The notes below the pieces were generated by a model. The model saw only the letters and a list, made by a program, of their open reading frames with translations. It did not search any database and was not told the origin of the DNA. Shown piece by piece: positions 14,206-27,201 of a stretch of DNA of 37,082 nt. The position numbers and the translations under genes are program-made. Each line of letters begins with the position of its first letter. The stretch's first letter is position 1. Origin of the DNA: a virus; IMG/VR virus record IMGVR_UViG_3300037587_000290, positions 1 to 37,082 of that record. One strand, given 5' to 3'.

Positions 14206-14687
14206 TGGAAGAATACGAATCTAGCGACGGGATTGCAGCAAGGGAGTTTAAACGTCTTAGGAATGTCATTAGAACTCAATCAGCTGAAATCTCAGAGCTA
14301 AAATCCGAGCTAGAACAGCACGACGATCAGATAACCAGTATCGAAATTGTTAATCAGGATTTGCTGGCGGTGGCTGGTGCGAGAATTAACAAGCTGGTCG
14401 ATGAGAATAACGAGCTTAAGGCGCAAATATTATCAATAAAACGTCTCGCTGATGGCCTGATGGGTTCAAATTCAGGGATTGATTACAGCGGAAAGATGGA
14501 CGGACTATTAGATGCTATTGATAAGGTTCCGCCGCAATGCCTAGCAAGCGTTAAGGCTGATGCTGTTAAAGACTTCATGCAAAACATTCAGTATTGCGAG
14601 GAGGACGAGCTAATCAACCAGGAGGGTATTGACGAAAGCTTTGATTTTTGGAATGAATCACGAAACAAACTACAGGAGCAAAAATAA
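14202..14687 (+). CDS. Coiled-coil phage protein, 161 aa
   Basis: ATG at 14202 overlaps the TGA before it; GGAGAAAACGAA upstream, nearly the same junction as at 13859-13875. Residues 15-85 form a heptad coiled coil (IRTQSAEISELKSELEQHDD, KLVDENNELKAQIL). The C-terminus SVKADAVKDFMQNI is like the tail of Ead/Ea22-type proteins of lambdoid phages. Function unknown. Confidence 0.65.
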   Translation: MMEEYESSDGIAAREFKRLRNVIRTQSAEISELKSELEQHDDQITSIEIVNQDLLAVAGARINKLVDENNELKAQILSIKRLADGLMGSNSGIDYSGKMDGLLDAIDKVPPQCLASVKADAVKDFMQNIQYCEEDELINQEGIDESFDFWNESRNKLQEQK

Positions 14688-14688
14688 A

Positions 14689-15567
14689 ATGAAATACCCA
14701 ACAGCTAATGAAGTTGTATTTGAGAACTCATATTTTAAAATCCTTTGTTTTAAACCTAATGTTGAAGGCGAAACAAGCACTGTATTGCTAGGGGCCATCG
14801 CTGGCCACACTAGTCAGTTTTCAGTTGACTACAAAAAAGATCAAAGCCTGGCGCAATGTGCCGTTGAAAATACTCTCGGTGGTGTTTATTCCATCTGCAT
14901 TAAGCCGCCAACCCTAATGAGTCGATGGGTTGTTACTTATGATTCATGGATGAAGTGGGTGGCTGACACTATCGAGTTTATCGACAATGGCCCAGTGCAT
15001 TTAGCTGGCATCTGTCAAGGTGGAGCTCTAGCGGCTAAGGTTGCTACCAAATACCCCGATTTAGTATGTGAGCTTACAGTTGCGGCCGCGCCGATTGACA
15101 CATCGTTTAAGTCGGTAATAACACCAGCCCAAAAGATACCATTTATTGCATACCAAATGGCAGTGGCAAAATTTGGAGGCGTTATGAGCGGCGATGCAAT
15201 GCTAGAAGCTTGGATGAAGCCACACAAAAAACATCATGAGGAGGCAATGAAAGATCCTGATAATGATTATTTCTATCGTGTTTACTTTGAAACACAGGAT
15301 ATCGATCCCATTCCTTATTTGTGGATGATATGGAATGTATTTATTTGCAACTTGCTATTAGCATCGCTCAATGTCAAATGTAAAATAAATACGGTTGTTG
15401 GGCATGAAGATGACATCACTCCGCCAGCGCAAATCAATGCAATACAGTCTGCATGCGAGCAGGTTGTCACTCAATACGGAGTTAATGGTGGTCATAAATA
15501 CGTATTCGGCAGCGTTGAGGCAATGAAAGCTGGCGGCGTGTGGGCTGAAATATTTGAGTCTAGATAA
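14689..15567 (+). CDS. Alpha/beta hydrolase related to PHA synthases/depolymerases, 292 aa
   Basis: ATG at 14689 with AGGAG upstream; the longer frame from 14629 lies in the previous gene. A nucleophile elbow G107-I-C109-Q-G111-G has Cys in place of Ser, as in PhaC (GxCxGG) and intracellular PhaZ. Acid and base candidates: VVGHEDDITPP (Asp241/242) and GGHKYVFGS (His269), matching the DDI and GHxxVF ends of the PHB-depolymerase C-terminal domain. GHTSQFSVDYKKDQSLAQCA near residue 40 fits a PhaC-like segment. Probably acts on a hydroxyacid polymer or thioester. Not a usual phage gene; followed by a hairpin. Confidence 0.75.
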   Translation: MKYPTANEVVFENSYFKILCFKPNVEGETSTVLLGAIAGHTSQFSVDYKKDQSLAQCAVENTLGGVYSICIKPPTLMSRWVVTYDSWMKWVADTIEFIDNGPVHLAGICQGGALAAKVATKYPDLVCELTVAAAPIDTSFKSVITPAQKIPFIAYQMAVAKFGGVMSGDAMLEAWMKPHKKHHEEAMKDPDNDYFYRVYFETQDIDPIPYLWMIWNVFICNLLLASLNVKCKINTVVGHEDDITPPAQINAIQSACEQVVTQYGVNGGHKYVFGSVEAMKAGGVWAEIFESR

Positions 15568-18835: not shown

Positions 18836-20934
<2,099 letters not shown>

Positions 20935-20935
<1 letters not shown>

Positions 20936-22207: not shown

Positions 22208-22894
22208 CTAAAACGAAGCTACCGTGCTGGTTGATGGAGTCCCAGCAAAGCTTAAGTCTGTCACTGGTGCGGGAGTTTGACCTGGGCCAAACAAGCCAGG
22301 GAACGCACCGGCAGCGCCTGATAAGTTTTGAAGTGTTCCTGTTATTGCATTACTTCTATTTATTTCGCCTTGCGCTTGCGCCTGACCTGTATTGCCCAGT
22401 AAGTTGGTTATATTTGACGCCGTTTGAAGTCCAGCAGTGCCTTGCCCTGCCGCTACGTTTGCGCCTAAACTGGCAGTATTAAATAATTGATTAAATCGCT
22501 GATTTTGTAACTGAGGCGCGATTGTTGATGTTAAGTCAGTATTAAACTGGGTTAAATCTCTCAGCGTACCACCAGCGCCCAATCGACCTTGGGCCGCTGC
22601 GCTTTCTTGGATTTGTTCAAATCCTTGCTGTCGTAAAAAATCAACCACTGGATTAATTTCTTCTAGTTGTTGACTTGGATCTTGTAAAAAGCTTTGTAGC
22701 TGCTCACTAGCTTCAAGCCCGACCTGTCTAAATGGTTCCGTTCTTTTTTCGAATGACTCTCTCGCCAAAGTCTGAGCATCTATACCTTGAGCGTTTGCCC
22801 TTTCTTGTGCATCAGTGGCTTTGTCGGCCGCTCTGCTTGATACCGCGCCGCCTACCACTGCCGTTGCCACAATCGCCGTTGCTATTCCTGACAT
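22208..22894 (-). CDS. P22 gp7-like DNA-transfer (ejection) protein, 228 aa
   Basis: Hydrophobic N-terminus (GIATAIVATAVVGGAVSS), then the conserved block FRQVGLEASEQLQSFLQDPS, NPVVDFLRQQGFEQIQESAA, GRLGAGGTLRDLTQFNTDL, and LQNQRFNQLFNTASLGANVA, widely annotated as phage DNA-transfer protein gp7/p33. Released early into the host, it helps move DNA across the envelope. The ATG lies 13 bases inside the end of the cupin-SET gene; GGGG upstream. Confidence 0.85.
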   Translation of the reverse strand: MSGIATAIVATAVVGGAVSSRAADKATDAQERANAQGIDAQTLARESFEKRTEPFRQVGLEASEQLQSFLQDPSQQLEEINPVVDFLRQQGFEQIQESAAAQGRLGAGGTLRDLTQFNTDLTSTIAPQLQNQRFNQLFNTASLGANVAAGQGTAGLQTASNITNLLGNTGQAQAQGEINRSNAITGTLQNLSGAAGAFPGLFGPGQTPAPVTDLSFAGTPSTSTVASF

Positions 22895-23742
22895 AAATCA
22901 CCATTCCCCAATCTATGGTTTAATACGTTTCTATAATTAACCGTTATTTCTTCATCTTTGGATATGTCTTTAACTGCAATAAAGTTGATGCAGTTGGTTT
23001 CGTCAAGTTCTATTTTTGCATTTGGAAACACAGCATGGTTCGCATATCTTCCCGCCGGAGTCCTAAAGCCGCCTATTCGGGCCTTGCATATAATCGCGCC
23101 TTCTTTTATTTCAGCGCCACTAAATAACCCTTTACCTTCAATGATTGAGTCATCGATATAAACATCATTAAACTCTGTGTTGTAAGTCAGCATATCATCA
23201 GTGTTTTCAACCTGCTTTCTTATTTCCTCCTGAGTCATTCCTGTACTGGCAACAAAGTCCAAATAATCAATTTTGTTGATTTGAGTGTGGAAAAACTCAA
23301 GCTCTTGGAAGTCATTAACTGTTATTTGTTTCTGTATTTCATCGCCGTCAACACCAATATAAGGATGAAAAGTCACCCATCTAGTGTCCTCGTGTGCGTA
23401 ACCTGCTCTTTTTTTGCCCGACAATCCTTTGAATATATTAAAACCAGTTAGTCTTTTAACTTCAGCGCTATCTGTCGATACTGTAATGTCACCGCTAATC
23501 ATTATGTCGAAGTGATCAAACTTATATATTTGACCGGTTAATATAGTGCCCTTCGGTATGGTTATTTCTCTGCCATACATTCCACCGTGAATATGATGGG
23601 TTACTGGTATGTCAACTTGTGGCAAATCCTTCGCCTTATCTTCCCACGCTAGGATTTTTTCTCTATTGGTTTTTTTGTCTTTCTCACAAATTGAACCAAC
23701 AATTTGCACTGCTGTTAATTCTGAAGGTTCCAATTCGATCAT
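22882..23742 (-). CDS. Cupin-SET fusion, putative protein lysine methyltransferase, 286 aa
   Basis: N-terminal part: THHIHGGMYGREITIPKGTI, then KFDHFDIMISGDITV is a cupin-like double-stranded beta-helix with histidines 49, 50 and 52. C-terminal part (193-272) is a SET domain: GKGLFSGAEIKEGAIICKA (203-221), GGFRTPAGRYANHAVFPNA with the NH motif (235-236), AVKDISKDEEITVNY (256-270). SET proteins transfer methyl groups from SAM to lysine. It lies between fibre-like genes and ejection proteins in the structural operon; the target may be a virion protein or a host protein. Cupin may set oligomer or metal binding. Confidence 0.82.
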   Translation of the reverse strand: MIELEPSELTAVQIVGSICEKDKKTNREKILAWEDKAKDLPQVDIPVTHHIHGGMYGREITIPKGTILTGQIYKFDHFDIMISGDITVSTDSAEVKRLTGFNIFKGLSGKKRAGYAHEDTRWVTFHPYIGVDGDEIQKQITVNDFQELEFFHTQINKIDYLDFVASTGMTQEEIRKQVENTDDMLTYNTEFNDVYIDDSIIEGKGLFSGAEIKEGAIICKARIGGFRTPAGRYANHAVFPNAKIELDETNCINFIAVKDISKDEEITVNYRNVLNHRLGNGDLCQE

Positions 23743-23820
23743 GGTTTAACTCTCTAGTTTAGGCGATGGTTAATGTTATTTAATTCTAACAAAAATTGAT
23801 AAAAATATCCAAGGTAGCGA

Positions 23821-24162
23821 TCATTGTACAAATTCCTTGCCGCTAATGTTCCAGCTTATTGAGTCGGCTAAATCTGATTCGACGCGGATCGTCTCGCCTG
23901 GACTTAATGCTTGGTTAACTATTTCGCCGCCGAATGATGATTTATTTCTGATTAATCTTTCGTCGGATATTAGCTTTTTAGTTAAAATACCATCAGCACC
24001 GAAAATATAAACAGAATGTATTCTATTTTGTGTTGTGGCATTGGTGGCAGTGAAAGCGGTAACAACTGAGCCCGCACCCTCAAGGGGGGACTTGTATACT
24101 TCCTCTATGGTGCCAGCCGTGGCAGAAGAAAAATCTCTAACTAGTTTTTTAGGATTTGCCAT
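23821..24162 (-). CDS. Small beta-rich virion-associated protein, 113 aa
   Basis: ATG at 24162 overlaps the fibre gene's stop (TAATG). Beta-strand pattern: GSVVTAFTATNATTQNRIHS, VYIFGADGILTKKL, GETIRVESDLADSISWNISG. This resembles small capsid/tail proteins in structural operons that form a beta sandwich. No named family. The 78-bp gap after its stop, before 23742, has no feature I can support. Confidence 0.6.
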   Translation of the reverse strand: MANPKKLVRDFSSATAGTIEEVYKSPLEGAGSVVTAFTATNATTQNRIHSVYIFGADGILTKKLISDERLIRNKSSFGGEIVNQALSPGETIRVESDLADSISWNISGKEFVQ

Positions 24163-25517
24163 TAGTTAACCCTCGATATTGAACTTGCAACCAATATATT
24201 TACGGTTGAGTCCTCATTGGTAACAAACCATTCTATAAAGTCGCCAGTTGAAAGCACCTCTTGCCATGGGGCCGTTATCGATGCTGGGTTGCCTGCTGAT
24301 GAATTCGCAGTTCTCTTTGAGTTTGGCACAATAGTTCCATTTAAAGCCAATTCGATAGAGATATTCACTGCACCACCCGAGACAGGCTCAACGGTAAATG
24401 ATCCAGTGTCGGGTAATGTTGCGTCTTTTCCGCCGTTATAAGTAAGTCTTCCCGCTGCGGTGCCAGTGAATTGACTTACCCTTTCAATGACCCATGTTCC
24501 AGCAATTAAAACGGGAGTTCCCGCAACTGCGATTACTGTCGCCGTAGCGTTGTTTTGCATCGATAGCAAACCATCCGGGCGAGTGTCTGCGATATCATCA
24601 TTATGAAAGAAGTTCCATAATGCATCATCAACGGTTACACCCGATAGAATAGATCCCGCGCCAGATGTTAGCATCCTAGTTATTATCGCTGTCCCGCCTG
24701 TGTTTATATTTGCGGATGATGCTGCACCACTTATTAATGTTGTACCGGCCCCAAGGTTAGCTAAAACCAAGTCAAGCGCTATCGCATCAAAAGTAGCAGT
24801 TCCAAAATCAAATAATGCTCCACCTGTAATGTTGGCCGCTGAGATTTCCCATAGCCAAGTATTCCATCCGCCTGTTATTGTTGAGCCATTAGACGAAATT
24901 GTAGACGGGCTTACATTTGTGAATCGAGTGGTCGATCCATTCGTGCCTGTGCTATTGAATAGGCCGAATACAGAGCATGATACTGAGCAGTCGTGCATCC
25001 TAAAGATAGTGTCAGTGTTGTCAGAAAAGTTAATAACGCGCCCACTTGCGCACGATATTGTTATGCTGCTTATTCTTGCTCGTTTGTTCGTAATTGTGAA
25101 CATGTCAGCAGTGCCGGTGTACGTTAGCGTAACGGCAACTGAATCTATGCCATCGAACGCGCAATTATTGCCCATTACAATCTCGTTAGTGCCAAGACTG
25201 AAGCTATTTCCTTGCAGGTACTGTGTGTCATCCGCTAGCGTAATAATCCCCGCTGCGGGAGTTGGTAGGTCTGACAATGCATTAACTACAACCTGCTTTG
25301 CTGGTTGTACTACCAATATTCCGTTAGTCTTCAGTCCGCCAGTAAAGTTGACCTCGCCTAAAACAGTTTGAACTGCCACTGCTAATTTAGTTAATGCGTT
25401 TTCAGCTAGCGGGAATGTTTCATCAAAGTTATCGTTAACTTTATCAAGCGCCGATCTGAATGTGTCGCCTGTGCCGTCATCTGCGGTCGAGCCTATGTTT
25501 ATTGTTTGCTGTACCAT
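24162..25517 (-). CDS. Fibre/appendage-like beta-rich protein, 451 aa
   Basis: N-terminal INIGSTADDGTGDTFRSALD then KVNDNFDE is a known short adaptor motif at the start of many tail-fibre and tailspike proteins. The middle (residues 120-330) has repeated short strands and Asn/Thr/Gly turns (RISSITISCASGRVINFSDN, NITGGALFDFGTATFDAIAL), typical of a right-handed beta helix. No enzyme motif is visible. It is probably a second appendage or virion decoration besides the esterase tailspike. Confidence 0.7.
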   Translation of the reverse strand: MVQQTINIGSTADDGTGDTFRSALDKVNDNFDETFPLAENALTKLAVAVQTVLGEVNFTGGLKTNGILVVQPAKQVVVNALSDLPTPAAGIITLADDTQYLQGNSFSLGTNEIVMGNNCAFDGIDSVAVTLTYTGTADMFTITNKRARISSITISCASGRVINFSDNTDTIFRMHDCSVSCSVFGLFNSTGTNGSTTRFTNVSPSTISSNGSTITGGWNTWLWEISAANITGGALFDFGTATFDAIALDLVLANLGAGTTLISGAASSANINTGGTAIITRMLTSGAGSILSGVTVDDALWNFFHNDDIADTRPDGLLSMQNNATATVIAVAGTPVLIAGTWVIERVSQFTGTAAGRLTYNGGKDATLPDTGSFTVEPVSGGAVNISIELALNGTIVPNSKRTANSSAGNPASITAPWQEVLSTGDFIEWFVTNEDSTVNILVASSISRVN

Positions 25518-25826
25518 TTAAGCCTCTGTTTCATCTGCCCAGAATATTGTGGTATCAACCGTCCAAGATGTAGTATCAACGGTTAAAAGCTCGCCTGAGC
25601 CAACTTGATCTTGTAAGTCTTTAAGTTGGGCACCTAAAGCGGTAATAACTTGCTCTTGATTGTCATTAATTAAATCCTCTCCGCCGCCCGACCTAATAAA
25701 CATGTCATGAAGATACCTGTTTAGGTATTCTATCACAGGCCGTATTTCATCGTCGGACATCCATTTAGCGGGCCATTGGATTACAAACGGATCCACCTTA
25801 GCCAATGTCGAGCTCCAAATCTGCAT
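25518..25826 (-). CDS. Small virion-associated protein, 102 aa
   Basis: ATG at 25826, 29 bases inside the end of the gp10-like gene, so probably coupled. Helical start (DEIRPVIEYLNRYLHDM), coiled-coil-like QEQVITALGAQLKDLQDQVG, and a repeated tail (LTVDTTSWTVDTTIFWADET, VDTT twice). Position between the tail hub and the fibre fits a tail needle or adaptor, which I cannot confirm. Confidence 0.6.
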   Translation of the reverse strand: MQIWSSTLAKVDPFVIQWPAKWMSDDEIRPVIEYLNRYLHDMFIRSGGGEDLINDNQEQVITALGAQLKDLQDQVGSGELLTVDTTSWTVDTTIFWADETEA

Positions 25827-27201
25827 CAGCAGAAATTAACACCCATTTAATGTTATCGGTCATCGTAAGCCTAAACATTCTAGTATAGAAGTCGCCCATG
25901 CCGAACCAGTCGATTTTGTGTTGGAACTCACCTTGTGCGCCTATATTCTGGAATCGTTCTGAACTCCAAGTCCTGCCGTTATCATCGGAATATTGCATGA
26001 TAATTTGTGATTCAGCAGTTACCAAGCTAGTGCCGGTCTCGATCTCTATCCCAAATCGATCCATAAACACTTTTGCGCCCACCCTTCCGAATGTTCGACC
26101 GTTGATAGCTATCGTGTCTCGTCGGTGCTGTATGGGCTCGCCGTTGTCCGTAAAGGTGTCAAAATCTAACTCGTAAATATTACCATTGCGACGGTCAGCT
26201 ACTAAGTTCTTACCATAAACAAACTGATAATCGCTGATTAAGTGCTGCGACCCATCAGTTCCGAATGCAAGATTGGTCCATAGCCCGGCCTCTTCGTTAA
26301 ATAACCATGTTTCGTTACCTGTCGGGAATGATAATAGGTAGAAATTCTGATTATCTAGAGTAAAACACATTCCGTAAGCGTCATCAGTTCTTGAATATTT
26401 AGATATCTTTTGGCCTATTGCCGGGTTGCCGATTGGGTTAATGGTTAATCCAGCTAATTGATAGACAATCAAGTCGCTACCAAGGAAATAAGCAAACCTA
26501 TTGTTAGATCCGATTGAGTGAATAGCATCAATACCAACCTCTTGAGTAGAGTTCAAGATAAACGTATAGGGAGGATTGCCAACACCGCTATTGTACATAG
26601 GTTGAATACTTTCAGCACCAAAGCCATATACCTGCTGTTTATAAGCAAACACGGCTTTCATATCATCCGGTTTAGCCTCTGCAATGATTACATTAGCACT
26701 ATTAACCACTAATGGATCGCTTAAATCTGCAAATGCAATATCACCATCGTTGCCGTCATAAACCATTCGGCGGTTAATGTAGGTAACTGTGCTGGCGCTT
26801 GGCAAGTCAATGTCAGTGCCTTGGGTTAATGTCGTGCCGTCATATTGGTATGGCTTGCCTATGCCAGTTGTTATCACTAAATTACCAACCTGATCTTCTT
26901 CTAGCTTGCATCGATCAACGCCATCAATGGTGCCAATAGATGTTTGAATGCCGTTTGATGCCACTTTAAATAGCGTATTACCTGAAACGGTATAAAGAAC
27001 ATCATCAAGCCGACCCATACCCCTATTAGCTCCGACACCTGTAGAGAATGGCTTCAGCCCTGGGAACGGATTAAATGAAACAGGCTCTCCGCCTTGAGGG
27101 TTTACTTCTATAATAAATCCCCGTGTCACTTGCGAGGAAACAGGAAGAGATCTATTTGTATATGTTGGCCCGATTAGTGGTATTGGGATGCCGGTAGCCA
27201 T
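25798..27201 (-). CDS. P22 gp10-like packaged DNA stabilisation protein (tail hub), 467 aa
   Basis: Size matches P22 gp10 (472 aa). Beta-propeller-like repeats run throughout: FNPFPGLKPFSTGVGANRGM, LDDVLYTVSGNTLFKVASNG, INRRMVYDGNDGDIAFADLS, FAYFLGSDLIVYQLAGL, and a C-terminal QYSDDNGRTWSSERFQNIGA segment known in this family. In P22 gp10 forms a hexameric hub below gp4 and keeps packaged DNA in. The adjacent upstream gene is gp4-like, the same order as P22. Confidence 0.88.
   Translation of the reverse strand: MATGIPIPLIGPTYTNRSLPVSSQVTRGFIIEVNPQGGEPVSFNPFPGLKPFSTGVGANRGMGRLDDVLYTVSGNTLFKVASNGIQTSIGTIDGVDRCKLEEDQVGNLVITTGIGKPYQYDGTTLTQGTDIDLPSASTVTYINRRMVYDGNDGDIAFADLSDPLVVNSANVIIAEAKPDDMKAVFAYKQQVYGFGAESIQPMYNSGVGNPPYTFILNSTQEVGIDAIHSIGSNNRFAYFLGSDLIVYQLAGLTINPIGNPAIGQKISKYSRTDDAYGMCFTLDNQNFYLLSFPTGNETWLFNEEAGLWTNLAFGTDGSQHLISDYQFVYGKNLVADRRNGNIYELDFDTFTDNGEPIQHRRDTIAINGRTFGRVGAKVFMDRFGIEIETGTSLVTAESQIIMQYSDDNGRTWSSERFQNIGAQGEFQHKIDWFGMGDFYTRMFRLTMTDNIKWVLISADADLELDIG

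Follow-up and report, generated by a model that had tools for sequence, protein, structure and literature searches.

A compact SET domain fused to a phage cupin and encoded just ahead of the DNA-ejection gene in a late virion operon

The window, by which is meant the whole stretch of 37,082 nucleotides analysed here (IMG/VR virus record IMGVR_UViG_3300037587_000290), carries an operon that starts with terminase, portal, scaffold and coat genes and that contains, further along, a single open reading frame in which a cupin domain is joined to a SET domain. The features of this part of the operon, in the order in which they are read, are:

25798–27201, minus strand: head closure protein Hc3, P22 gp10-like (phrog_578, E=1.1e-76)
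24162–25517, minus strand: fibre-type protein of 451 aa (phrog_16509, E=3.4e-15, and tail families)
23821–24162, minus strand: small protein of 113 aa, the upstream neighbour, without a family match; homologues lie upstream of many cupin genes
22882–23742, minus strand: cupin-SET fusion gene, a 286-aa ORF with an ATG start (AF2 pLDDT 90.8)
23332–23619, minus strand: cupin domain, residues 42–137 (VIA-align Z ~10 against cupins; phrog_12032 and phrog_24280 over residues 13–153)
22924–23205, minus strand: compact SET domain, residues ~180–273 (Pfam SET E=2.4e-9; Z 10–10.8 against EZH2 and MLL1)
23035–23040, minus strand: N235-H236 of the SET NHxxxPN motif, invariant in 87/87 domains covering the pair
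22933–22935, minus strand: Y270, invariant in 86/86 domains covering the position
22208–22894, minus strand: DNA-ejection protein (phrog_598, E=5.9e-31), a conserved neighbour

The order on the minus strand is thus Hc3, a 102-aa protein, the 451-aa fibre-type protein, the 113-aa protein, cupin-SET, the phrog_598 ejection protein and then large proteins, one of which, past the ejection gene, has a tail-fibre match. The portal is P22-like and is 32–40% identical to the portals of DSL-LC05, environmental phages, BA3 and VvAW1. The ATG of the ejection gene lies inside the end of the cupin-SET gene, with a 13-nt overlap at 22882–22894 (ATGTCAGGAATAG), which explains both the C-terminus ...CQE present in most close relatives and the MSGI start of the ejection protein. 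The sequence-only reading had placed the fusion between fibre and ejection genes, and this location is borne out by the fibre-like gene upstream and the phrog_598 gene downstream. The assignment of cupin-SET to the late virion operon of this short-tailed phage is supported.

Several other features of the window were noted. The 113-aa protein has no family match, yet it recurs upstream of cupin genes in distant phages. Just upstream of cupin-SET there is an AT-rich gap of 78 nt (23743–23820), a rare break in a tightly packed stretch, which could be a promoter site. Two genes past the ejection protein, the 699-aa protein at 18836–20935 has no PHROG match and contains, close to its N-terminus, about twelve glutamines in a row. 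Outside the virion operon, a plus-strand ORF at 14629–15567 has a weak esterase/lipase PHROG match (E=3.7e-5).

Pfam PF00856 (SET) matches residues 176–270 of the protein with E=2.4e-9 and 38 bits (curated cut-off 22.4), and all 24 family members tested are matched by it as well. When a SET-only profile of 24 relatives was searched against the PDB, the matches were MLL2/MLL1 (E ~1e-13), EZH2 and vSET (2.7e-8). Pfam alone makes no cupin call in the 286-aa protein. A search of PHROGs matches its N-terminal half to PHROG 12032 and PHROG 24280, named 'short tail fiber / tail fiber adhesin' (E=6.2e-41 and 1.1e-35), and residues 14–286 to phrog_34170 (E=4.7e-80). In the AlphaFold (AF2) model, built with 49 relatives (pLDDT 90.8, pTM 0.82), residues 42–137 have the cupin double-stranded beta-helix fold by Foldseek and VIA-align (Z ~10), while residues ~180–273 have the SET fold by the same two methods (Z 10–10.8 for EZH2, MLL1 and SET7/9, and 9.9 for vSET). 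The claim from sequence alone that a cupin-like domain and a SET domain share one ORF is upheld by the Pfam SET match, the PDB profile search and the fold matches, and the presence of both folds is confirmed at the level of the predicted structure.

Read against the HxH...E...H motif, the classical metal ligands are absent from the window cupin, which has Q71-I-Y73 and H77 at the HxH and E positions. The residues H49, Y56, R58, E59, K111 and W122 are kept in cupins with or without SET. A structural or docking role would be more likely for this domain than catalysis.

Within the SET domain, S199, G205, T228, R232, N235, H236, E265 and Y270 are invariant, where covered, across 88 distinct SET domains. 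We take N235-H236 to be the SAM-contacting NH pair of known SETs, and Y270 presumably occupies the position of the SET catalytic tyrosine. Across 86 pairs, some of them not independent of one another, the median pairwise dN/dS is 0.06 in SET and 0.034 in the cupin. The invariant SAM and catalytic motif residues, together with the strong purifying selection, indicate that cupin-SET is very probably an active methyltransferase and, given its place in a late virion operon, make methylation of a virion protein plausible. Loss of SAM-binding residues, which had been named beforehand as the finding that would speak against an enzyme, did not occur at the level of sequence and fold.

The SET domain is also compact. 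The spacing from GxG to NH is exactly 30 residues in 87/87 measurable SET domains, and 84 model residues of the window SET span 122 residues of MLL1. Missing from the phage domain is the I-SET insert, which is usual in SET proteins, although not strictly defining, and which in other SETs lines the substrate groove. The helical linker, or the cupin itself, may stand in for it.

It had been suggested from the sequence that SET domains are unusual in phages. This holds for named phages and isolates, where the SET part is matched by 10 of 50,697 named-phage records, but not for phages in nature, since the SET subfamily of cupin-SET is encoded by at least 585–590 IMG/VR contigs. Eight of the ten matching records encode cupin-SET (PH1 twice, P26218 twice, zth2-2 and three environmental records), and the other two represent a weak match in cyanophage P-RSM6. 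The cultured carriers are Pseudoalteromonas phage PH1 and Rhodoferax phage P26218. A search of bacterial and archaeal genomes gave five cupin loci, of which two have SET, both in MAG contigs.

The association of the two domains is near-obligate. The same cupin is carried by 190 of 192 SET ORFs examined (113/114 in the loci kept and 77/78 in a scan seeded with divergent SETs), a count that includes some re-fetched contigs and draws on the best 80 loci of each scan, so that more distant SETs could differ. The loci were picked by SET similarity, independently of the presence of the cupin, and the two SET ORFs without one (L138, L238) both begin at a contig end. The order SET-cupin, the reverse of that in the window, is found in six loci from five contigs (L147, L162 = L206, L170, L177 and L186). 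In the SET tree the reversed-order SETs are scattered among the normal-order ones, and in the cupin tree two cupins of reversed proteins group with SET-less cupins (L162 with L115, 98/91; L170 with L117 and L077, 99/90). To account for the SET label, at least five changes have to be placed on well-supported branches of the cupin tree; both trees are based on 118–123 columns, and L062, one of the rows labelled 'cupin only', is simply cut short. The existence of the reversed order, the scatter of its SETs and the grouping of two of its cupins with SET-less ones show that the cupin-SET pair was joined more than once.

By profile, 98 SET loci have an ejection-type gene directly downstream of the cupin gene; in most of the other SET loci with downstream room the next protein has the same hydrophobic MSW/MSG start. 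Other enzymes and domains occur in this slot ahead of the ejection gene. In BPP-1 the order is GNAT (bbp24), cupin (bbp23) and bbp22, and ctQRb9 is arranged likewise. The GNAT acetyltransferase gene is directly upstream of, and overlaps, the cupin gene at L042 7483–8813 (BPP-1 bbp24–bbp22), L041 5197–6505 and L116 4427–5408, an acetylating enzyme at the position that SET takes in other phages. At two further loci, L089 5527–6369 (Achromobacter) and L100 4959–5870, a T7 gp13-like domain is fused N-terminal to the same cupin. The N-terminal domain of the L089 protein matches phrog_4177 (E=1.3e-24) and phrog_308 (E=3.7e-4), the second being the family matched by T7 gp13 itself at 1.1e-42, and the fusion is flanked by genes for a gp12-like tail protein (phrog_376) and for a gp14-like protein (phrog_418). 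A GNAT fold was considered for this domain and gained no support: the AF2 model is poor there, with many blocks of pLDDT <50, the matches that Foldseek lists are cupins, and an hhalign comparison with a GNAT yielded no match. The domain is for this reason called only 'gp13-like'. The window cupin-SET protein has no match to PHROG 308 at E<=0.01.

Comparable arrangements have been described elsewhere. In cobaviruses, a GNAT beside internal virion proteins has been equated with T7 gp13, and a suggested role in virion morphogenesis has been cited (PMC6775973). In a Pseudomonas T7-like phage an acetyltransferase gene lies between gp12 and gp14, and none of the virion bands that were identified corresponds to its product (PMC10142737). 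Among cupin phages without SET, most lack a GNAT as well (no SET in 5/5 BA3-type records, no GNAT in 9/10), which makes the enzyme an optional module.

The explanation given most weight, although somewhat less than an even chance, is that cupin-SET is a late morphogenesis factor. The cupin domain would dock on the tail/ejection machine, as its gene neighbourhood suggests, and the fused compact SET would use S-adenosylmethionine to methylate, before or during assembly, a lysine in one of the virion proteins produced with it, most likely one belonging to the same machine. The fusion recurs in hundreds of environmental contigs, the compact SET being always cupin-fused as far as has been seen and almost always encoded just ahead of the ejection gene; this suggests that these phages modify a part of their own particle, and that methylation is one of the steps in its assembly. 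The invariant motif residues, the low dN/dS, the joining of the pair in both orders and the GNAT and gp13-like domains of the same slot also speak for this explanation. The DNA-ejection protein (phrog_598) is the leading candidate substrate. Several observations count against this explanation: the ejection protein of the window has two lysines only, most SET-less cupin phages manage without such an enzyme, and conservation of gene order is in itself common in virion operons. The explanation is weakest on the substrate: in the ejection protein, Hc3, Ad3, the fibre and a 415-aa protein there is no lysine column that is kept in SET phages and lost elsewhere. K5 and K14 of the 113-aa protein were considered as SET-linked target lysines and set aside, as their partial signal does not hold in the clade to which the window belongs (L001, L003).

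A second explanation is that the fusion is packaged in the particle, with the cupin as a part of the tail or ejection apparatus, and is injected, so that the SET domain reaches the next host and methylates its proteins early in infection. Its gene is encoded among virion genes and adjoins those of ejection proteins, and its N-terminal half is matched by families that carry a tail-fibre annotation. However, the fibre name of PHROGs 12032 and 24280 is an annotation and not a test, and the acetyltransferase in the comparable T7-like slot is missing from the identified virion bands (PMC10142737); packaging and injection are considered unlikely. The SET domain might instead methylate its own cupin or a neighbouring subunit, tuning a structural tail protein. 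Fusion would secure the encounter, and K111 of the cupin is nearly invariant; this lysine is, however, kept equally in cupins without SET and so does not track the enzyme, and self-methylation is considered improbable. The chances are also slim that cupin-SET acts late in infection on a host or other cytoplasmic target, its place in the virion operon setting only the timing. The failure to find a conserved target lysine in the neighbouring virion proteins would fit such a role, which leaves the constant cupin fusion and the near-constant place ahead of the ejection gene unexplained. The least probable explanation is that SET has no catalytic role and serves for binding or as a structural element, as the absence of the groove-lining insert from every member might imply, since a scaffold would not need all of the SAM-site and catalytic positions that are invariant across highly diverged members.

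A broader possibility can be raised, with the balance of probability clearly against it: that a docking cupin carrying interchangeable domains (compact SET, GNAT or T7 gp13-like) represents a widespread and undescribed class of phage assembly enzymes, and that in many short-tailed phages the apparatus for DNA ejection is matured through the methylation or acetylation of lysines.

The literature searched yielded no paper on a phage cupin-SET protein, nor any description of the family, the near-obligate joining of its two domains, their two orders, the missing I-SET or the slot. Single pieces are already in databases, as PHROG 34170 and as the 'SET domain containing protein' of uncultured phages. 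The members of PHROG 34170 include PH1 gp49, P26218 gp30 and a protein of MW202744 named 'pbcV-1 histone H3-lys 27 methyltransferase structure', and in its records the product is either called hypothetical or named after a single domain. Like the window protein, these members consist of a cupin followed by a SET domain, with their genes in the same position before the ejection gene; PH1 gp49 is 48% identical to the window protein over 96%. The window protein is a member of this PHROG, whose function is unknown, and does not differ from it in any essential respect.

Histone modification is the main role known for SET methyltransferases. The SET lysine methyltransferases, including vSET of PBCV-1, MLL, EZH2, SETD8 and SET7/9, have the fold and the GxG, NHxxxPN and EExTxxY motifs in common with the window SET, which differs from them in being about 90 residues long, without I-SET, fused to a phage cupin and without a histone substrate. 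The cupin-only 'short tail fiber' proteins of BA3, VvAW1 and BPP-1 type have a homologous cupin (54% identical in BA3) in the same slot ahead of the ejection gene, but no SET; in BPP-1 and ctQRb9 a GNAT with a gene of its own takes the place of SET. With T7 gp13 (PHROG 308) and the GNATs found in its slot the comparison is one of working likeness only: they occupy the same slot upstream of a gp14-type protein, while the gp13 domain is unrelated to SET, with no sequence relation between them. The cupin-SET family offers a handle on the slot that gp13 occupies in T7.
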